Below are positions 16,221 through 44,252 of a DNA stretch of 64,000 bases, piece by piece. Below the pieces are notes generated by a model. The model saw only the letters and a program-made list of their open reading frames with translations, was not told the DNA's origin and made no database searches. Made by a program: the position numbers and the translations under genes. The stretch is from an uncultured Planktomarina sp. Its GTDB lineage: Bacteria > Pseudomonadota > Alphaproteobacteria > Rhodobacterales > Rhodobacteraceae. How positions within the stretch are numbered: position 1 is the stretch's first letter; the number at the start of each line of letters is the position of its first letter. Location of the stretch: NCBI GenBank assembly GCA_905182535.1, contig CAJJBZ010000012.1, positions 109,366-173,365 on the forward strand, written 5' to 3'.

Positions 16221-16598
16221 ATGCTTATGACAACTCTACAAGTGGCCCTTGGCGGGTCAATTGGTGCTGCCCTTCGGTTTCTGGCTGGAGTTGGTATACT
16301 GCGTCTGGTTGGCCCAGGGTTTCCACTTACGGTGTTGGGTGTGAATGTTTTGGGCTCCTTTTTTATGGGCCTATTTGTGGTATTTGCCACACAACGTGGT
16401 GTGACACAGTTGAACCCCTTTGTGCTGACTGGCTTGTTGGGAGGGTTTACGACCTTTTCGGCCTTCTCACTGGAAGCTGTCCACTTATTCGAACGCGGGG
16501 CGATGGGGCAAGCCTTGGCCTATGTGGTGATTTCAGTTGTCTTGTCGATAGGGGGCCTAATATTGGGTCTGATGATTGCGCGAGGGATATGGGCATGA
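16221..16598 (+). CDS. crcB: Fluoride ion channel CrcB/FluC
   Basis: FluC is a dual-topology dimeric channel that exports fluoride from the cytoplasm. The 125-residue product has four hydrophobic segments and the family marks GGSIGAALRFLAG, VNVLGSFFMGLF and GGFTTFSAFSLE. I use ATG 16221; ATG 16227 is an alternative, and an upstream in-frame start at 16182 lies inside rarA. The stop overlaps the rluC start as ATGA. No fluoride riboswitch was recognised upstream. Confidence 0.9.
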   Translation: MLMTTLQVALGGSIGAALRFLAGVGILRLVGPGFPLTVLGVNVLGSFFMGLFVVFATQRGVTQLNPFVLTGLLGGFTTFSAFSLEAVHLFERGAMGQALAYVVISVVLSIGGLILGLMIARGIWA

Positions 16599-34655: not shown

Positions 34656-34732
34656 GGACCGATAGCTCAGCTGGATAGAGTACCTGACTACGAATCAGGG
34701 GGTCGGGGGTTCGAATCCTCCTCGGTCCGCCA
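34656..34732 (+). tRNA. tRNA-Arg(ACG)
   Basis: A 77-base cloverleaf can be folded: acceptor GGACCGA with TCGGTCC, D-arm around AGCTCAGCTGGATAGAGT, anticodon stem CCTGA/TCAGG around loop CTACGAA with anticodon ACG, and the T-arm with GGTTCGAATC. CCA is encoded at 34730-34732. The ACG anticodon is changed to ICG by TadA in bacteria and reads most CGN arginine codons. The gene marks the left edge of a mobile element. Confidence 0.95.
34706..34732 (+). repeat. Putative attL: 3' end of tRNA-Arg
   Basis: The last 27 bases of the tRNA gene recur imperfectly at 41176-41202 in the same orientation (about 20 of 27 positions alike, including the first nine and the last seven). Such duplications of a tRNA 3' end usually flank integrated elements. 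The mismatches mean it may be an old site or the trace of a different integration. Confidence 0.5.
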
Positions 34733-35033
34733 TAAACTCCCAGCACTCAGACAGCAGCCATTTAGTGGCGATTATTCCTTAGATTTCAGGCCATTAAAAT
34801 ATCAGATTTCATCTGAGGACTTTTGCTCGCGCTGAATTTGGCGGTTTAAAACCTTTTCCTCACAGGCCTATTCTAGGCGTCCTTAGTTTCCCTGTTCTTT
34901 GCAATTAACAGGGAATTTAACAGGGAACTTTGTGTTTTTTGCGCTCTTATGGCAGACCAAACTGCGGTAATTCCCATACGGCGTTGGGGCGTCTCGGGGG
35001 ACGGTTAAAAATTAACAGGGAATTTAAATCGGA
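34733..35033. other. Gap between tRNA and recombinase with repeated 11-mers
   Basis: No gene is visible. The stretch holds three of the four copies of TTAACAGGGAA described separately and an inverted copy TTCCCTGTT at 34888-34896. It probably represents the recombination or control region at the left end of the element. Confidence 0.4.
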
Positions 35034-35048
35034 TTAACAGGGAACCTT
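34905..35048 (+). repeat. Four direct copies of TTAACAGGGAA at the element's left end
   Basis: Copies start at 34905, 34917, 35012 and 35034; the first two are in tandem with a 12-base period, and the last forms the final codons and stop of the recombinase gene (minus strand, ...VPC and TAA). An inverted copy at 34888-34896 can pair with the first to form a hairpin. The copies may be binding sites for an integrase or excisionase. Confidence 0.7.
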
Positions 35049-36650
35049 GCCGATATAGAGTGCCTCTTGCTCGGCCCAGTTTTCTGGAACGGCTTTGCTT
35101 TCCAAATTCTTAATGGTGATGTCGTGGTGCAGGGTTCCAGCCAAGATCGCTTTTTGAACTTTGGGAGATAAGCAGGCCAGCCTCATGCGCTTCCAAATCG
35201 TTCGATCTAGCAGGCCTGTCTGTTGTTTAAGGCCTGCGATTTGCTTGCCTGATTTAATCTGGTTGAGCCAATCATGAGCATCATGAAGTGCCTTGATGAG
35301 GTGGGTTCTAGGGCCCTGCTTATACTGGGCCCAGATAAGCTTGGTTCCATTTTGCCTGCGTTGAAAGCTGATCGGTTCTTCAAAGATCAGGAGTTCAGGT
35401 TCAAAAGTATTTGAGGGGCAACTTAGTAAGGCTGCAAGCCCATCTGCGTTTATAGAAATTCTGAGAATACCCTTTGTTAAGTCTACGCGCTGGATCAGGC
35501 TTAAAGCGGCTTTAATGCTGAGGGCTTCAAACTGACAGATGTAGCCTGCTACTTCATGAACCTTCATATCAGCCTTCAGCTGTAAGTTCTGACAGGTCCT
35601 TATCAGATAGGTTTTGAGCATGGCGGATAGGGCCAATTCTAAAGTATCAGCCTTTATGCGCCAGCCCGTGGGATCGGCCCCTTTGGTGGTCAATCTGTTG
35701 GAGTAATAATAGCGGTGCACCCGCCCATCGCGCTTCGTGTTGGAGGGCGTTAACCGATCGCCCGTCTCGTCATATATTTTCCCAATCAGGCAAGCCGAGA
35801 GACCGCGCTTGGGATGTGTGCCGCGCTTGATGGCTGACTTTAGCTTTAGCTGTTCTTGCACCCGATCAAATTGATCCGCATCAATGATGCCTTGATGAAG
35901 GCCTTCGTAAACTTCGGTCTTATGGCGAACTTTCCCGATATAGATTGGATTGATCAAGATTTTGTAAATACGGCCCCGGCTGTAATTGCGCGCTGGCCAG
36001 AGCCCATCTACCCGCTGTTTGAGTTGGCTCAGGCATTCCAGCTCTTCGTATAAATCAAATATCTGCCGGATATCTTCAGCATGCTCTAAGTGGACTTCCA
36101 ATGATTGGACTTTCGGGTCTGAATGGATGGCATAGCCCCATGGCACGCGCCCTCCCATCCACATGCCCTTCTTTTTAGATGCAGCGATTTTGTCGCGGAT
36201 ACGCTCGGCGGTGACTTCCCGCTCAAATTGGGCAAATGACAAAAGCACATTGAGCGTCAGGCGTCCCATCGAAGTCGATGTGTTGAAGGATTGTGTTACC
36301 GATACGAAAGAGCACCCCTTGGCCTCAAGCCGGTCAATCAATTTGGCAAAGTCTGCCAATGATCTGGTGAGCCGATCAATCTTATAGACCACGATCATAT
36401 CTACCAGGCCGCTATCTACATCCTCTAAGAGGCGTATCAGGGCAGGGCGGTTCATCGTGCCGCCTGATACTCCGCCATCATCATAGCGTGCCTTTAGGTG
36501 CTTCCAGCCTTCGTGGCGCTGGCTGGCGATATAGGCTGCACACGCTTCGTGTTGCGCATCAAGGGAATTGAACTCCTGCTCTAAGCCTTCCTCCCGCGAC
36601 TTGCGGGTATAGATCGCGGCGCGGATTTTCTGGCGGGGCATCGCGTTCAT
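35034..36650 (-). CDS. Large serine recombinase
   Basis: This 538-residue protein is a site-specific recombinase of the resolvase/invertase superfamily. The catalytic domain is at residues 8-150 with the nucleophile Ser18 in IYTRKS and the motifs DGGVSGGTMNRPAL and YKIDRLTRSLADFAKL. It is followed by the Recombinase domain (GRVPWGYAIHSD, PIYIGKVRHKTEVYEGLHQGI) and a long C-terminal part. It probably integrates and excises the element next to the tRNA, although serine recombinases seldom use tRNA genes. The start overlaps the DUF2924 stop as ATGA. Confidence 0.93.
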   Translation of the reverse strand: MNAMPRQKIRAAIYTRKSREEGLEQEFNSLDAQHEACAAYIASQRHEGWKHLKARYDDGGVSGGTMNRPALIRLLEDVDSGLVDMIVVYKIDRLTRSLADFAKLIDRLEAKGCSFVSVTQSFNTSTSMGRLTLNVLLSFAQFEREVTAERIRDKIAASKKKGMWMGGRVPWGYAIHSDPKVQSLEVHLEHAEDIRQIFDLYEELECLSQLKQRVDGLWPARNYSRGRIYKILINPIYIGKVRHKTEVYEGLHQGIIDADQFDRVQEQLKLKSAIKRGTHPKRGLSACLIGKIYDETGDRLTPSNTKRDGRVHRYYYSNRLTTKGADPTGWRIKADTLELALSAMLKTYLIRTCQNLQLKADMKVHEVAGYICQFEALSIKAALSLIQRVDLTKGILRISINADGLAALLSCPSNTFEPELLIFEEPISFQRRQNGTKLIWAQYKQGPRTHLIKALHDAHDWLNQIKSGKQIAGLKQQTGLLDRTIWKRMRLACLSPKVQKAILAGTLHHDITIKNLESKAVPENWAEQEALYIGKVPC

Positions 36651-37042
36651 TTGGGCACTCCAAAGAACTTATTCCCAGAGCAGTGGTAGCCGCATATCTG
36701 CTTGGCGACTTGCGATAGGGAGGTATAGGCCGCCTCCTGCCAAACAAACGCGCCTGCGGCGTTCACTTCAACCAAATGGGTTTTGCCATGATGCTCTCGC
36801 ACAAAGCGTGTGCCGGCCGTTAACTTGGGCCTATCTGCTTTGCCGTTCACGCGGCGCTCTAGGGCTTGTAGGAACCTTTGGGTTGGCCTGCCGTGGCGCT
36901 GTGCTTGGTGTTCAAAGGCGATTATTGAGATCAGAAGTGATCGGCTAATATGCTTGGGGGCTGGCCTGCCTATGGTCACTCGCCAACGATCTATAAGATC
37001 ATCGCGCGATGCAGTTTGTAGGGTCTTAAAGAATGTGTCCAA
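36647..37042 (-). CDS. DUF2924 protein
   Basis: The 131-residue protein resembles DUF2924, a family of unknown function found next to recombinases in alphaproteobacteria. Marks are DLIDRWRVTIGRPAPKHISRSLL near the N-terminus, LTAGTRFVREHHGKTHLVEV and the final SLSQVAKQICGYHCSGNKFFG. Tight coupling to the recombinase gene suggests an accessory role in recombination or in its control. Confidence 0.8.
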   Translation of the reverse strand: MDTFFKTLQTASRDDLIDRWRVTIGRPAPKHISRSLLISIIAFEHQAQRHGRPTQRFLQALERRVNGKADRPKLTAGTRFVREHHGKTHLVEVNAAGAFVWQEAAYTSLSQVAKQICGYHCSGNKFFGVPK

Positions 37043-37158
37043 TTGCTTTGCTCCATGTGATCATTGTCACTGAGCAAAGCCCGAGGGCATTCGGGCGTAC
37101 CTCGACACAGCCTTACGGGTGCTATGAAGTCCAGTCCAAAGAACTACAAATTAGGTAT

Positions 37159-38592
37159 TCAGCTGATCCGCCAAAGGGGCATGCCATTTCCTATGCCCAT
37201 TTGCGATAAGGCTTGCGAGAAGCTGTCGACCAAGTCGTCATTGCGGCCATGCGGGAAGTGCCGCAATTCTTGGGTTACCATATTGAGATTGGGCTCATCG
37301 CGCACAAAGTAGACTTTGCCGGAGTTGATCTTATGCAGCTGTGCTTCCAGCCTTTGCATTTTAGAAAGCCCTCCGGTTGGAACCGAGTTTACAATGCAGC
37401 GGTTAGACAGATCTTCCCTCACCATTCGAATAAGATCGACCGCATGGTTGGCCGCCTCTATGCAGACGTATTGCGCCGAATGTGCAATCGCGTTTCGTAT
37501 TATGATGCTTTGCAGTTTCTCGCTGGTAACGCGGCAGCGATGTGCATCAATTAACACCAAGCGCCCATCTTCAAACCGGGCCCAAGTTGTAACTGCTGAG
37601 TAATCGGCAGTCGGCTTATCCGACAGCGCCGTATCCCAGCTTTGAAAGATTGTGGGAACAAGATCTATTTGGCTAAATTCATCTTTGCTGATGTATTTGA
37701 TCTTTCCAAAATCTATCGGGCAATCGTCCTCAACAAGGGGGTGTTGAAGATACTGCGCGCAAAACGCAGCGTCGCCCATTTCAGATTGCTTTTCGGATAA
37801 GAACTGCTCGGACATTCGGTTCGGTGTCAGCAGTTCACCTGCGGTGACCTCTTTGTGGCCGAAGATGCCCAAGTTGAACTGTGCCGGTTCATCAAAGCGG
37901 GCCGGCAGGCTCAGGACCGTCCAGGGGTGCGCTGGATCACGTGTTATATCTCCGCAAAGGTCATTGGGGCTTATGCGCTGCTGTATCAGAAGCATTTTGC
38001 CCGTCTGAGGGTTATCAAGGCGTGTGGTTACACTTTGCCTGAACACTTGGACTAAGTCGTCCTGACGGACCTCTGAGCGCATGTGTGCGGCCTGCAAGGG
38101 ATCATCTAGAATGATCCAGTCTGCACCAAGCCCGGTGAGTGCGCCACGAATGGATGTAAAGATGACTTGCCCACCCTGCGGTGTGCGCAAATTGGTGGCT
38201 TGCATCCTATCATTTTCCAAAACCGTATGAGGAAAGATCCGCTTATAGGCAGGATGAAGAAAGACCTTCTTTGTGGCGCGCGCCAGTGTTGTTGAGAGAT
38301 CATCGCCATAAGTCACAACAATGATTTTGGTCTTTGGGTTTTTGCCAAGTAGCCAGGGTATAAAGTAACTATTGGCCATGGAGGTCTTTAACGATCGGGG
38401 TGGGGCGTTGATAATCAAACGCCGACACTGTCCATGATACATCTCAAGCAAATGCTGGCTTATGGCGTGCAGATGCCACGGACACTCAAAGCCCTCTGTA
38501 TTATCGATCTTGGGAAACAGATGGGCGAAGAATAAACTTGGTGATTGGCGAAGCAGTGAATGGAGTTCGGCTTGATTGAGCTTACGTGTCAT
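37159..38592 (-). CDS. Phage-type terminase large subunit
   Basis: Terminase packages DNA into phage heads: an N-terminal ATPase and a C-terminal nuclease. The start at 38592 (MTRKLNQAELHSLL) gives 477 residues; an earlier in-frame ATG at 38619 is possible. Walker A is NAPPRSLKTSMAN, unusual but typical for this terminase group, Walker B is ADWIILDDPLQ, and the nuclease part has QSWDTALSDKPTADYSAVTTW and ...LIDAHRCRVTSEKL. No portal, capsid or tail gene is nearby, so its role here is unclear. Confidence 0.88.
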   Translation of the reverse strand: MTRKLNQAELHSLLRQSPSLFFAHLFPKIDNTEGFECPWHLHAISQHLLEMYHGQCRRLIINAPPRSLKTSMANSYFIPWLLGKNPKTKIIVVTYGDDLSTTLARATKKVFLHPAYKRIFPHTVLENDRMQATNLRTPQGGQVIFTSIRGALTGLGADWIILDDPLQAAHMRSEVRQDDLVQVFRQSVTTRLDNPQTGKMLLIQQRISPNDLCGDITRDPAHPWTVLSLPARFDEPAQFNLGIFGHKEVTAGELLTPNRMSEQFLSEKQSEMGDAAFCAQYLQHPLVEDDCPIDFGKIKYISKDEFSQIDLVPTIFQSWDTALSDKPTADYSAVTTWARFEDGRLVLIDAHRCRVTSEKLQSIIIRNAIAHSAQYVCIEAANHAVDLIRMVREDLSNRCIVNSVPTGGLSKMQRLEAQLHKINSGKVYFVRDEPNLNMVTQELRHFPHGRNDDLVDSFSQALSQMGIGNGMPLWRIS

Positions 38593-38970
38593 TGCTGCCC
38601 GCATCAAAACTGAGGCCAATCTTATCTAACTCCAACAGAAGTGCCCCATCGATCTGTTCAAGTTCTTCTGCTGTGCTTGTGTCATCTTCAGCTGTCCCTC
38701 CAAGTACGCCGAACAGTTGAACGATCAAGCGTTGTTGCCCGATACGCCCGTTGATGGCTGCGGTGGCAACCGCGGCGAGCAGCGCGCGCTGTTTGGTGAC
38801 GCAAACGACTTCACCATTTTTATTGACCATCACTTCCTCCTCAAGCTCTTGGCGTAAGTCGTCTGCGAGAGTTGGGGGGCGTTTGTTGTGCACTTTGGTG
38901 GCCGGCCTTTCGGATTGCCGGACTGGCCTTTTTTGAATTGGGTGTGCTTGGGTGGATTTTTATAACTCAT
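38582..38970 (-). CDS. DUF5681 protein, frameshifted
   Basis: From ATG 38970, which overlaps the methyltransferase stop as ATGA, the minus strand reads MSYKNPPKHTQFKKGQSGNP and then KGRPPK, the DUF5681 start. After that the frame breaks, and the rest (NKRPPTLADDLRQELEEEVM and NGEVVCVTKQRALLAAV) follows in another frame to 38582. One A missing from the AAA near 38895-38898 explains it; 389 bases plus one is 130 codons. DUF5681 genes commonly precede terminase genes, so it may be a small-terminase-like partner; this is inference. Confidence 0.7.
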
Positions 38971-40256
38971 GACCCACCTGCGTTGCTCAAGAGGCGATCA
39001 TCTTTGATCTCGTTGTAGCTTTTGCCAGATTGAACGTGAACGGCGTCCAAGTTGCACCGATCTTTAAGACGCTTAAGGGCCACATCGACAAATTTGGGCT
39101 CCAGTTCAATTCCAAGACAGCGCCTACTGACTTGCTCTGCGGCCAGACAGGTGGTGCCACTCCCCAAAAACGGATCGAGCACCCAGTCCCCGATTGAGGT
39201 ACAGTCCAAAAGAATGTCGGCGATAAGCTTGGTTGGCTTTACCGTAGGATGATCCACAAGATCCTCTGTTCTGGTTGGTCCAAAGCTGGTCACGCCATCA
39301 TATTGCCAGACATTTGTCCGGTAGCGGCCACTTGCTCCAAGGTTGATGTTGTTTTGGAAAGTTTTGACCCGGCTATAAACCGCAACCAACTCATGTTGCG
39401 AGCGGTAGAACGATCCCATCCCAGCATTTGTTTTGGCCCAGACACACAGGTTTTGCGCCATTAGGTGCAGCGCTTTTGCAGCTGCATTCAGATGATCCAT
39501 ATGGCGCCAATCCATACAGACGTAGAACAGGGCCGTTTCAGTGGTGAGCGGCATTGCTGATCGCAGAAAGGATGTAAGGAAACCCTCAAACTCTTCATCG
39601 CTCATCTCACCTGCGGCCATCGCAAAGGCCCCATGACCTTGACCTGTCCTGATATGGCCTTTGGTCGGCACATTATAAGGCGGGTCCGTCACGCAGACTT
39701 TGGCCAGAGGCTTTTCATCAAGGTCGCTCAAAGCTGATTGGGCAGATAAAGCATCAACGCAGGCAATGATGTGATTACCAACTCGCCATATATCACCAAG
39801 CTGGGTTACGGGATCGGCGGTATTCCAATCTTGCTCTGGCTCATCGATGAGTTCAAAATGGAGGATCTTATCAATCTCAGCCTGCTCAAAACCGGTAAAG
39901 CTGAGATCAATTTTGAACTCTAATAGCTGTTCAAGCTTTTGCTTTAAGCGCCCTTCATCCCAGGTGCTGTCTTGGGCCAGACGGTTAAGCGCCAATTCCA
40001 GTTCAATGAGCTGGGCGGGAGACGCCTCTGACACAACAATCGCATTGAGAGTTTCAACGCCGAGCTCTTGAGCCACGGCAAGCCGAAGATGGCCATCAAT
40101 GATGCGATGGTTCTCATCAACGACAATAGGCACAACAATTCCCTGTTCAGCAAACAGGTGCTTTGCTTTTTGAATTTGTCGTGGCGGGTGATGGCGAGGT
40201 GTTGAGTTTGAAGAACGAAGCTCCCCAAGACCCAACGAACAAGTGGTCAGCAGCAT
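38967..40256 (-). CDS. ParB-like domain fused to DNA methyltransferase
   Basis: The 429-residue protein begins with a ParB/sulfiredoxin-like nuclease domain (VVPIVVDENHRIIDGHLRLAVAQELG) and continues as an N6-adenine or N4-cytosine methyltransferase: DPPYNVPTKG is the catalytic motif IV, and DPFLGSGTTCLAAEQVSRRCLGIELEP is motif I near the C-terminus (beta-class order). Such fusions are common in prophages and mobile elements, where they protect or mark DNA. No matching restriction gene is seen. It is the first gene of the leftward element operon. Confidence 0.9.
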   Translation of the reverse strand: MLLTTCSLGLGELRSSNSTPRHHPPRQIQKAKHLFAEQGIVVPIVVDENHRIIDGHLRLAVAQELGVETLNAIVVSEASPAQLIELELALNRLAQDSTWDEGRLKQKLEQLLEFKIDLSFTGFEQAEIDKILHFELIDEPEQDWNTADPVTQLGDIWRVGNHIIACVDALSAQSALSDLDEKPLAKVCVTDPPYNVPTKGHIRTGQGHGAFAMAAGEMSDEEFEGFLTSFLRSAMPLTTETALFYVCMDWRHMDHLNAAAKALHLMAQNLCVWAKTNAGMGSFYRSQHELVAVYSRVKTFQNNINLGASGRYRTNVWQYDGVTSFGPTRTEDLVDHPTVKPTKLIADILLDCTSIGDWVLDPFLGSGTTCLAAEQVSRRCLGIELEPKFVDVALKRLKDRCNLDAVHVQSGKSYNEIKDDRLLSNAGGS

Positions 40257-40428
40257 GCTAACTCCTTCCGTTGAATTAGGACTTCAATATTGAAGCCAGC
40301 AACAAACCGAACTTGGTCATTCGGGCTACTGCTATGCTTTAATCATAACACCAATTCAGGTTCGGCTAAAGCAGTTATATTTTTTAAATAGTTGATATAA
40401 TTAAATAAAATGTTAATTCTGTTAACTA

Positions 40429-41073
40429 TCACTCGTCAGCCGGTACCGCAAAAACAATCAGGACTGCATAGTTCTTGCGATTGCACCCGCTTACCAGTGG
40501 AGGAGATTCGCCGGGCTTTAGAGGGAAAGCAGACCGGTCCGCATATTTTGGCGAGCAGGAACCGCTTTCACCTTCGGGCGTATATCTCGCAGACCGGCAT
40601 GGGCCATGTGTGACATCCCCAATGGTTTTATCATCTGTGAGTGACCAGGCTTGCTTGCCTTCCGCATCCGCCCCTTCAACTGTCAGAAGAGAAATATTCT
40701 CCTCACCGTTGGTCACGTAATACTGTCCCGCCGGAATAGGAAATTCTGGCGCTTTCATGATCAGGCCGTTCTCATCCAGCCACCAATCATCAATATCAAA
40801 CCGCCAACCCGAAGGAGCAATATTACCCGCTTTCTGCAAAGCCTGATAAAACCGCAACCACACACCGATCGGGCCTGGATCAACTTTCCAAAGGCCCCAA
40901 GTTTCCGCGCCAGTCCCTGACGTTGCACCTTCAGGAGCCAATGCCGCGATATACTGGGTTTGAATGCGGCGAATTTTTGTTTGTGCTGCTAAAGGAGCGG
41001 CAATGGATGAAACCAAAAAGCCAAACGCTGACGCGAGCCATTGGCGACGGGTGAAGTTGAAGGTGGGTTTCAT
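40429..41073 (-). CDS. Tat-exported protein of unknown function
   Basis: From ATG 41073 the product reads MKPTFNFTRRQWLASAFGFL, a twin-arginine signal with cleavage likely after PLAAQ. The 214-residue protein has no family I recognise. The mature part is rich in Trp and Gly, with GTGAETWGLWKVDPGPIGVW, WWLDENGLIMKAPEFPIPAG and YYVTNGEENISLL. The start at 41073 is preferred over 41205, because the extra residues do not resemble a leader. It lies alone between the methyltransferase and the right end of the element. Confidence 0.6.
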   Translation of the reverse strand: MKPTFNFTRRQWLASAFGFLVSSIAAPLAAQTKIRRIQTQYIAALAPEGATSGTGAETWGLWKVDPGPIGVWLRFYQALQKAGNIAPSGWRFDIDDWWLDENGLIMKAPEFPIPAGQYYVTNGEENISLLTVEGADAEGKQAWSLTDDKTIGDVTHGPCRSARYTPEGESGSCSPKYADRSAFPLKPGESPPLVSGCNRKNYAVLIVFAVPADE

Positions 41074-41175
41074 ATGCGTCTCGGTCTGATTGCTCACAGT
41101 TGATTTAAAAATAGCACGGCAATTATTTTTGGCAAATAGAGGGGGCAAATTGATGTGTGGTGGGAGGCCGCTTTT

Positions 41176-41202
41176 GGGGTTCGATTTCCTGTCTGTCCGC
41201 CA
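41176..41202 (+). repeat. Putative attR: imperfect copy of the tRNA-Arg 3' end
   Basis: GGGGTTCGA at the start and TGTCCGCCA at the end match the tRNA 3' end at 34706-34732, with seven differences in between. The distance of 6.47 kb encloses the recombinase-terminase-methyltransferase element and the Tat protein gene. Confidence 0.5.
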
Positions 41203-41256
41203 CATATACCTAATTAAGTAGCTGATTTTATTTATATTAATAATAAAACTAAATCC

Positions 41257-41307: not shown

Positions 41308-41578
41308 AGGGGTTACTGTACCCAATCGTTACGGTTCAGCTGCAATCGGCGCCAGTGGGCCCCCCAATCATAGGGCCCCGCGTCTCGGACCACGGGCCTT
41401 TAGTATTAGCCTTGTAAATTCATTCGGGGGTAATTTTGTTCGGCTGCCATCTCTATTCACGCACCAATTTCAAGCTAAACCGTGCCGCTGCTCTCGCTGA
41501 GTGGCGTCAATTATTGAGCGCATAGATTTAGGCTGTGCTAGCAATCTGATGCGTGTTCTCATTAGTTTGACAGCTGCC
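41308..41578 (+). repeat. Direct repeat, copy 1, ending in an IS6 right-end fragment
   Basis: The segment begins GGGGTTACTGTACCCAATCG and ends with a 133-base piece of an IS6-family element (41446-41578) that encodes the last residues of the transposase (INFKLNRAAALAEWRQLLSA-like) and its terminal sequence GTTTGACAGCTGCC. A divergent copy lies at 50994-51257 in the same orientation. Ends are more alike than the middle. Confidence 0.65.
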
Positions 41579-43326: not shown

Positions 43327-43674
43327 CTACCGTTTCCCCGGCGGCACGTCTCGCAATCTCAAACTTATTTCATCAACCTGAGTACGTGTCCATTTTGAAT
43401 GTATTCGCACTGTGCTCGCTGGTTGGTTACTCAATCCAAGCCTAGGTTGATCACGGTGGGTGTTCTGTGGACGGATTGGTCGATGTGCAAAGCCACCGCC
43501 GCATGTTGCGCACACATTATGTAGAACCTTTTCAACACATTCTACACAATAGGTGCATTCGTAAGTACATATCCGCGCCTCCGATGAATCAGGTGGAAGG
43601 TCTTTGTCGCACCACTCACAGTTTGGTCCCGCAGCGACGTGGTAGGCGAGGTCTACGGTGTTGACGTAAGTCAT
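43327..43674 (-). CDS. DUF1272 cysteine-rich protein, N-terminus altered
   Basis: The core NCEWCDKDLPPDSSEARICTYECTYC and the following CATCGGGFAHRPIRPQ match DUF1272, a small zinc-ribbon-like family of unknown function with paired CXXC. The usual N-terminus (a few residues before NCE) is replaced by MTYVNTVDLAYHVAAG, which is encoded by the antisense of the IS6 fragment start. The C-terminal tail after PRPQN-like text also differs from the family and may run into junk. The gene was probably cut at its 5' end by the IS event. Confidence 0.65.
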   Translation of the reverse strand: MTYVNTVDLAYHVAAGPNCEWCDKDLPPDSSEARICTYECTYCVECVEKVLHNVCATCGGGFAHRPIRPQNTHRDQPRLGLSNQPASTVRIHSKWTRTQVDEISLRLRDVPPGKR

Positions 43675-44241
43675 GAAACGGTCCGGTTTTGGTGGAACCG
43701 CTTCGGGCCAATGTTTGCATCAGAGATTGCTAGGAAAAGACGTAACCAGGCACGCAGTCATTCTAATTGGCAGTGGCACTTTGATGAGGTCTTTGTGAAG
43801 ATCAACGGTGAACGGCACTACCTTTGGCGTGCTGTAGATCACGAAGGTGAAGTTCTGGAAAGTTATGTGAGTAAGCGTAGAGATCGCAAAGCCGCATTAA
43901 AATTCATAAGAAAATCAATGAAGCGCAATGGCCAACCTAAAATTATAGTAACGGACAAACTGCGTTCCTACCGCGCTGCGATGATGATCATAGGAAATGC
44001 TGACCGGCAAGAAACAGGTCGCTGGGTAAACAACAGAGCTGAGAATTCTCATTTACCGTTCAGGCGACGAGAGAGGGCGATGCTAAGGTTTCGCCGAGCG
44101 AAAACCTTGCAGAAATTCGTCTCCATCCACGCTTCAATCCAGAACCATTTTAACCAGGAACGCCATCTCTATTCACGCATCAATTTCAAGCTAAACCGTG
44201 CCGCTGCTCTCGCTGAGTGGCGTCAATTATTGAGCGCATAG
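43639..44241 (+). pseudogene. IS6-family transposase, lacks N-terminus
   Basis: The 200-residue frame has the DDE catalytic pattern: WQWHFDEVFVKINGERHYLWRAVDHEGEVLE (first Asp), IVTDKLRSYRAAM (second Asp), and the Glu in NNRAENSHLPFRRRERAM. The helix-turn-helix N-terminus of about 43 residues found in full copies (it survives in the fragment at 47038-47217) is absent. It is therefore most likely inactive in DNA binding. The ATG or GTG starts in the frame are incidental. Confidence 0.85.
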
Positions 44242-44252
44242 ATTTAGGCTTG
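43658..44252 (+). mobile_element. IS6-family insertion sequence, 5' truncated
   Basis: The segment encodes most of an IS6-family (IS26-like) transposase, from GVDVSHETVRFWWNRFGPMF through the DDE core to LAEWRQLLSA, stop at 44241, and continues for about ten bases. The first 43 or so residues and the left terminal repeat are missing; DUF1272 sequence takes their place. Fragments of related copies lie at 41446, 46885, 46981, 50745 and 51128. Confidence 0.85.

Follow-up and report, generated by a model that had tools for sequence, protein, structure and literature searches.

The window analysed here is a stretch of 64,000 nucleotides from an uncultured Planktomarina sp. (contig CAJJBZ010000012.1 of assembly GCA_905182535.1, positions 109,366 to 173,365). 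It contains an integrated element of 6,470 bp (34733–41202) next to a tRNA-Arg gene. The element belongs to a widespread compact family, in which an integration module (DUF2924 and a large serine recombinase, REC) is combined with a packaging module (a ParB-methyltransferase, DUF5681 and TerL, the terminase large subunit). Judged by its genes, the element is probably a phage satellite that has its own packaging motor and borrows the capsid of a helper. The points that speak for this reading are the intact motor, the packaging gene order, low ratios of nonsynonymous to synonymous substitution (dN/dS), mobility, and the presence of related genes, without DUF2924, in a short record labelled as bacteriophage (MT839917.1).

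The genes of the element are tightly packed on the minus strand and point toward the plus-strand tRNA-Arg(acg) gene (34656–34732). This gene is the target; its 3′ end faces the element, and an orthologous tRNA lies beside one of two related copies in genome G396 (copy b). Starting from the tRNA, the genes are REC (35034–36650; Pfam Resolvase 2.6e-38 and Recombinase 6e-9, PHROG integrase 1.1e-84), DUF2924 (36647–37042; Pfam 2.5e-26, AlphaFold pLDDT 92.9), TerL (37159–38619; Pfam Terminase_6C 1.4e-9, PHROG terminase 8.7e-79), whose ATPase and nuclease residues are intact, DUF5681 in the position of a terminase small subunit (38582–38970), and a ParB-like domain fused to an N6/N4 DNA methyltransferase (38967–40256; Pfam N6_N4_Mtase 3.7e-32, PHROG_498 1.5e-96, PHROG_620 ParB 1.1e-29). 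The Pfam ParB_N match of the last protein is weak (0.0032, below the family cut-off). The open reading frame (ORF) of DUF5681 (38582–38893, Pfam 7.7e-8) starts at 38893 and is a fragment, with the conserved N-terminus (FKKGQSGNPKGRP) lying upstream in a different frame, from about 38970. The gene is frameshifted in this assembly, either genuinely or through an assembly error; the frame is open in both G396 copies. A sixth gene (40429–41073, minus strand) encodes a protein with a Tat-type (RR) signal, identified by eye. It is 81% identical in both G396 copies and occupies the same place there, and we therefore assign it to the element, as cargo. The longer ORF that contains it (40429–41205) has no Pfam match. 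A second Tat-signal gene, 77% identical, is present in the window genome (G000:C8:149898-150533, loci L118 and L126) with no element genes recognised beside it, and homologs also occur in G529 and G424.

A first, sequence-only reading had proposed five linked genes beside tRNA-Arg, ending at 41202 and including a packaging ATPase without portal, capsid or tail. All five were found on the minus strand with a family match for each, the tRNA-Arg(acg) was located, and the end at 41202 agrees with a tRNA-like repeat and with a flank match to genome G385. The gene list needed two amendments: the DUF5681 ORF is only a fragment, and the Tat-signal gene lies inside the element. Pfam and PHROG scans of the element found the terminase and no portal, capsid, head or tail genes, and among its six proteins there was no match to AlpA-like regulators or to primase/replication families. 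An integrative mobilizable element would have a relaxase or an oriT; no relaxase was found in the Pfam scan of the proteins, oriT being outside that scan. By its Resolvase and Recombinase domains and its site-specific insertion, the element is a large serine recombinase island. Judged from empty sites and gene content, it is also an integrated mobile unit without a complete virion gene set, as a phage satellite would be. Satellites are in addition packaged into particles made by a helper, of which MT839917.1 is only suggestive here.

The boundaries are supported by an empty site in the same genus. In G385 (locus L360), the sequence after the CCA of tRNA-Arg corresponds to the window from 41204 (89% over 364 bp). 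The left attachment site, on the plus strand at 41178–41202, is an imperfect copy of the tRNA-Arg 3′ end (19 of 25 positions identical; the next best match has 15, and shuffled sequences give 15–16). Together these place an insertion of 6,470 bp at the tRNA-Arg 3′ end, the exact junction lying somewhere in the 25-bp repeat. Four plus-strand TTAACAGGGAA repeats between the REC end and the tRNA (34905–35044, starting at 34905, 34917, 35012 and 35034, the last overlapping the end of REC) are candidate arm sites of the recombinase. These are four matches in the window where 0.04 would be expected, and their offsets from the tRNA are nearly constant in the window, in G396 copy b and in G387 (172–173, 184–185, 279–280 and 301–302).

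G396, a one-contig genome of the same genus, contains two copies of the element that are 94% identical over 6,505 bp and occupy different sites: copy b is at the orthologous tRNA-Arg and copy a is elsewhere. Point estimates of dN/dS between the two copies are 0.06 for the Tat-signal gene, 0.09 for the methylase, 0.26 for both DUF5681 and TerL, and 0.15 for both DUF2924 and REC. Five comparable genes also look constrained between the window copy and G396, though dS is saturated. In a third species (G387) only the tRNA-side end is left, with the last 58 residues of REC. Within the genus (20 genomes), a strong TerL match is confined to the window genome and G396, and G385 and G388 have weak matches. 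We note that the left ends of both G396 copies (L057, approximately 16261–16320, and copy a) carry, by eye, the 3′ half of a tRNA-Thr, which mismatches the tRNA-Arg site of copy b. Copy a adjoins a P4-like stretch (L055/L056 joined, approximately 20.4–25.4 kb) with tyrosine integrase, AlpA-like and primase-like genes, again by eye, so that two unrelated elements lie side by side.

The same targeting is seen in relatives. Of 60 distinct REC genes followed by at least 700 bp, half (30) have a tRNA gene within 1 kb, in every case with its 3′ end toward the element; as background, a tRNA is present in 4.3% of 1.2-kb windows drawn at random from these loci. The tRNAs are 24 Ser, two Arg and one each of Gln, Met, Ala and Val. 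For the 30 REC genes with no tRNA in reach, other targets or second recombinases are possible. Four insertions at tRNA-Ser(gga), in L132, L135, L139 and L141, measure approximately 11.5, 6.37, 6.52 and 6.48 kb, and in genomes where this site is empty, the far-end sequence of each comes immediately after the corresponding tRNA (approximately 73–97% identity over 70–270 bp). A tRNA-like repeat at the far end is clear in the window, G396 copy b and these four loci. Matches in L130 and G434 seem to be pieces of a different tRNA gene, and in most other loci no such repeat rises above shuffled sequences. The element inserts at the 3′ end of tRNA genes as a discrete unit.

When 394 sampled genomes of the family were searched with TerL, 30 gave matches at E <= 1e-20, some of them without the full module. 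Further relatives were sought with a 16-sequence TerL alignment; a scan of viral contigs with the window TerL alone as query gave no match. From the alignment scans, the top 80 of 335 confirmed loci were taken for named genomes and the top 80 of at least 583 for IMG/VR, and all were labelled with five hidden Markov models (HMMs). Two arrangements were distinguished: colinear, with methylase, DUF5681, TerL and then DUF2924-REC (individual genes can be absent), and divergent, with DUF2924-REC facing away from methylase-DUF5681-TerL. The named loci comprise 14 colinear, 19 divergent, 36 with the packaging module and no DUF2924/REC in the available DNA, three with TerL and no methylase/DUF5681, and eight with no called TerL ORF of 300 aa; for the viral contigs the corresponding numbers are 22, 13, 13, 29 and one, with two others. 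The order of the window, with nothing between TerL and DUF2924, recurs in L233, L240, L246, L247 and L255 with gaps of 48–144 bp. Hosts are mostly Alphaproteobacteria and include Collimonas, Nitrosospira, a gammaproteobacterial metagenome-assembled genome and Edaphobacter among others; the titles of the records with module loci name Alpha-, Beta- and Gammaproteobacteria and Acidobacteriota. MT839917.1, a 5.4-kb record from human faeces labelled 'Bacteriophage sp.', has REC, methylase, DUF5681 and TerL, and no DUF2924 was found in it.

The sequence-only reading had suggested looking for the same gene order in other alphaproteobacteria, and had named linked structural phage genes in relatives, or a lack of mobility in many genomes, as outcomes that would count against it. 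The gene set was found in many relatives, also beyond the class; mobility is evident from the discrete insertion unit and from empty sites at tRNA-Arg and tRNA-Ser; and among the neighbours scanned, linked structural genes were recognised in L277 and L285 only, which are true phages. These two loci, recognised by reading 23 chosen sequences, are the true phages among 157 TerL ORFs with a methylase or DUF5681 directly upstream; 40 TerL ORFs are without, and both counts include some loci entered twice. In the relatives scanned, the genes after TerL are methylases, an endonuclease, transposases, unknowns and host genes. Two sets of neighbouring ORFs were compared with PHROG (93 + 97, that is 190 of 219 on the element side, near-duplicates and some short or cut ORFs being left aside). 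The commonest matches were DNA methylases, transposases, endonuclease, helicase, exonuclease and unknowns, in tallies that show 25 of 114 and 25 of 90 families and that rare structural matches could escape. A few ORFs matched portal families, and a single ORF of the 97-ORF set matched head morphogenesis. In the control group (42 of 65 ORFs scanned), a single portal family was matched by 22 of the 42. Eight true phages with related TerLs served for comparison: in seven, a portal or head-tail gene is annotated directly, or three small genes, after TerL; in the eighth, HTVC023P, the genes after TerL are unnamed. A phage-like plasmid has a portal next after TerL.

Structural genes do occur elsewhere in the carriers. 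With one Pfam family searched for each (HK97-type PF04860 and PF05065), a portal was found in nine of 15 carrier genomes and a capsid in eight, in every case on a different contig or at a distance of more than 900 kb. Some of these probably belong to gene transfer agents (GTAs), and a resident GTA, instead of a helper phage, might then package the element. We regard this as quite unlikely. No PF04860 portal was found in G000 (74% complete), G396, G576, G446, G616 or G471, and G000 also gave no PF05065 capsid. The genus, we assume, may belong to the RCA cluster. That cluster is reported, in the accessible text of PMC10675870, to have no complete GTAs, and no prophages apart from one incomplete case. 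If the genus does belong there, a helper is more likely to be an infecting phage.

The TerL sequences themselves largely separate from those of phages. In a 186-sequence tree, the best split (support 0.994, picked post hoc as the best of all splits) places 139 of 141 element TerLs opposite 33 of 34 virion-linked ones, class P membership of loci from L266 on having been assigned by the absence of methyltransferase and DUF5681 and not one by one; ten of 11 unlabelled TerLs fall on the element side. The exceptions are the phage contig L266, nested weakly (0.54) beside the clade of the window, and L137 and L295, which lie outside the element side. The unlabelled G033, by eye apparently a phage- or GTA-like region, falls on the element side. 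These exceptions make occasional exchange of TerL with phages likely. The catalytic residues Lys78, Asp172, Asp173, Asp329, Asp462 and Asp465 are kept in all 141 element TerLs, and catalytic Glu388 in 139; Arg75 is kept in 140. Both Walker motifs (A and B) are retained. With its Walker A/B and nuclease residues nearly invariant, TerL is a maintained motor and nuclease.

These results bear on the idea that the element is a decayed prophage, stripped of its structural genes. Its modules are clearly similar to temperate-phage modules, phage WO has a DUF2924-recombinase pair, and the phage-like L266 and perhaps G033 sit on the element side of the tree. Given the exact units of insertion, the empty sites, the pair of copies in G396, the low dN/dS and the separation of most TerLs from virion-linked ones, we consider a prophage remnant very improbable; the recurrence of the same compact set in many genera also argues against it. 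By eye, a gene cluster resembling a contractile injection system lies beside the TerL element in G416 (L064/L065, approximately 35–55 kb of the joined stretch). G416 was considered as a full prophage and rejected, the 16 kb between its TerL and DUF2924 consisting by eye of insertion-sequence-like and surface-sugar-like genes.

The same gene set recurs with or without cargo. Cargo recognised by reading or scanning includes a C5-methylase, Vsr and a probable restriction enzyme in L098 and G439, a type I restriction-modification system in G038_44, and a hybrid-cluster protein operon in G038_39. Such genes point to the main rival explanation, in which methylase, DUF5681 and TerL serve defence, not transport, as a unit that acts against phages or in the manner of a restriction system. 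Incoming phage DNA would be cut, or competed with, by TerL-DUF5681, self DNA would be protected by the methylase, and the element would spread by its recombinase and ordinary transduction or transformation. The methylase does adjoin a nuclease-bearing ATPase, restriction and methylation genes are among the cargo, and the 36 of 80 named loci without DUF2924/REC are what would be expected of a stand-alone functional unit. This explanation nevertheless seems to us unlikely, since the residues of the motor, both Walker motifs among them, are conserved and the genes stand in the order of phage packaging genes. PADLOC families match the methylase well, DUF2924 weakly (E 0.015), and TerL and DUF5681 not at all. 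Directly after TerL of one element (L095, 8797–10539) there is a caspase-like protein (PF00656, 3e-38).

DUF5681 has the position of a small terminase, its gene overlapping the start of TerL, and it is because of this position that we propose such a role. In the true Leptospira phage LE3, DUF5681 is directly before TerL, with a portal gene soon after; a DUF5681 protein was found in virions of phage STGO-35-1, according to the accessible part of PMC8954984. When the DUF5681 HMM was run against 476 controls, the four best sub-threshold matches (E 0.013–0.26) were genes in the small-terminase position of true phages, which is a hint. Other comparisons were negative: no known small terminase matched among PDB folds, none among viral folds (where the best named match was another DUF5681), none among the Pfam families of five named small terminases, and profile-profile comparison with 25 small-terminase-position genes and that of CRP-901 gave a probability of 0.85%. 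In phage FelixO1, the 8 kb surrounding the DUF5681 gene contain no annotated terminase.

For DUF2924, no PDB match of the predicted model passes E 0.001. The best is the MPND-DNA complex 7ydw (prob 0.97, E 0.075), and lower matches are to part of the methylase CcrM (prob 0.85–0.87, E 0.6–0.8). The model bears a faint likeness to RAMA-type DNA-binding domains, to which the matched parts of 7ydw and CcrM presumably belong, and MPND presumably reads methylated adenine. It is a reasonable but weakly supported suggestion that DUF2924 may be a DNA-binding, possibly methylation-reading, helper of the recombinase.

We propose the following mechanism. REC would excise the element, probably with DUF2924 as a DNA-binding helper. 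Upon infection by a phage, or production of GTAs, DUF5681 would act as small terminase and TerL as motor and nuclease; TerL would dock on the helper portal and package the element DNA. A concatemer is the probable substrate, 6.5 kb being too little for a head of normal size. The methylase may mark the element DNA or shield it from host and helper nucleases. More speculatively, such elements could form an undescribed and widespread class with no machinery beyond a tRNA-seeking serine recombinase and a complete packaging module. With their own motor they would package themselves into any compatible foreign procapsid and carry defence and stress cargo from host to host, the methylase and the RAMA-like DUF2924 being writer and reader that gate excision; we see this extension as a serious possibility, though somewhat less likely than not.

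Several observations weigh against a self-packaging satellite. A TerL without a portal of its own must dock on a foreign one, and no primase/rep replication gene was found in the element, unlike P4 or PICI satellites. DUF5681 has no reliable sequence, profile or fold similarity to a known small terminase, and it is frameshifted in the window copy. In a search for DUF2924-REC, 27 of 31 loci (the best-scoring places and that of the window) have no TerL within 1.5 kb; together with the 36 of 80 TerL loci without DUF2924/REC, this indicates that the modules are not obligate partners. Membership of IMG/VR is a prediction, possibly triggered by the terminase gene itself. An origin of MT839917.1 from virus particles is unconfirmed, as the Mexican study of virus-like particles in PMC8361208 fits the country and sample and its main text, so far as accessible, gives no accession. 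The suggestion in the sequence-only reading of a satellite thus stands as regards a mobile tRNA-gene element with a terminase, no virion genes and many relatives, and the use of a helper or GTA is still a proposal.

Comparison with known systems places the element apart from each of them. According to the available text of PMC10690885, cf-PICIs and the Mulch/Flayer satellites likewise encode their own small and large terminase, but they also carry capsid and portal genes, of which the element has neither; a cf-PICI has its own capsid, portal and protease plus terminase, and here there is the terminase only. PICMI, in the text of PMC10803314 open to us, is also approximately 6 kb with minimal gene content and no capsid remodelling, and is packaged as a concatemer. 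It has three core excision/replication proteins and lies beside fis, and 'terminase' is absent from that main text. The element differs in having a terminase, methylase and serine recombinase, and in lying at tRNA genes, mostly in Alphaproteobacteria, whereas PICMI is fis-adjacent in Vibrionaceae. P4-like satellites, classic PICI/SaPI and AH14b are integrated, like the element, and depend on helper particles, as the element probably does. As described in the accessible text of PMC10690885, P4-like and PICI/SaPI elements use the large terminase of the helper, some adding TerS or Rpp. For AH14b, the available portion of PMC4936722 describes tyrosine integrase, AlpA-like and P4-like primase genes, none of which was found in the element. 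Phage WO shares the order of DUF2924 directly before a serine recombinase, but is a phage with tail and baseplate genes, unlike the element. Temperate tailed prophages have a portal and major capsid linked to TerL, which were not found here by the portal and capsid families searched, other portal families being outside the search; GTAs have a head-tail cluster that packages host DNA at random, and the element has no head or tail genes. VEIMEs and tycheposons are marine integrative elements for which transfer in particles has been proposed. They are named in the accessible parts of PMC10803314 and PMC11389934, and their gene content is not part of this comparison.

Among the open-access papers searched, three mention DUF2924 and one DUF5681, and no title or abstract among the matches listed describes the element, a satellite combining serine recombinase and terminase; the search did not extend to subscription papers and preprints, which may contain a description. 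If the mechanism holds, such a satellite would supply the packaging motor and steal only the shell, and so complement the satellites that steal the motor. It would explain lone terminase genes that are counted as viruses in catalogues such as IMG/VR, would offer a 6.5-kb test system for the docking of a terminase on a foreign portal, and might be a vehicle for defence genes. The occurrence of relatives in many alphaproteobacteria suggests a little-known kind of phage hitchhiker.

Outside the element, an 89-bp direct repeat (99%) at 41446–41534 and 44162–44250 of the window flanks a peptidase M24 gene and overlaps the 3′ end of an IS6/IS240-type transposase gene (43639–44241). Similar IS fragments are found near the left end of both G396 copies.

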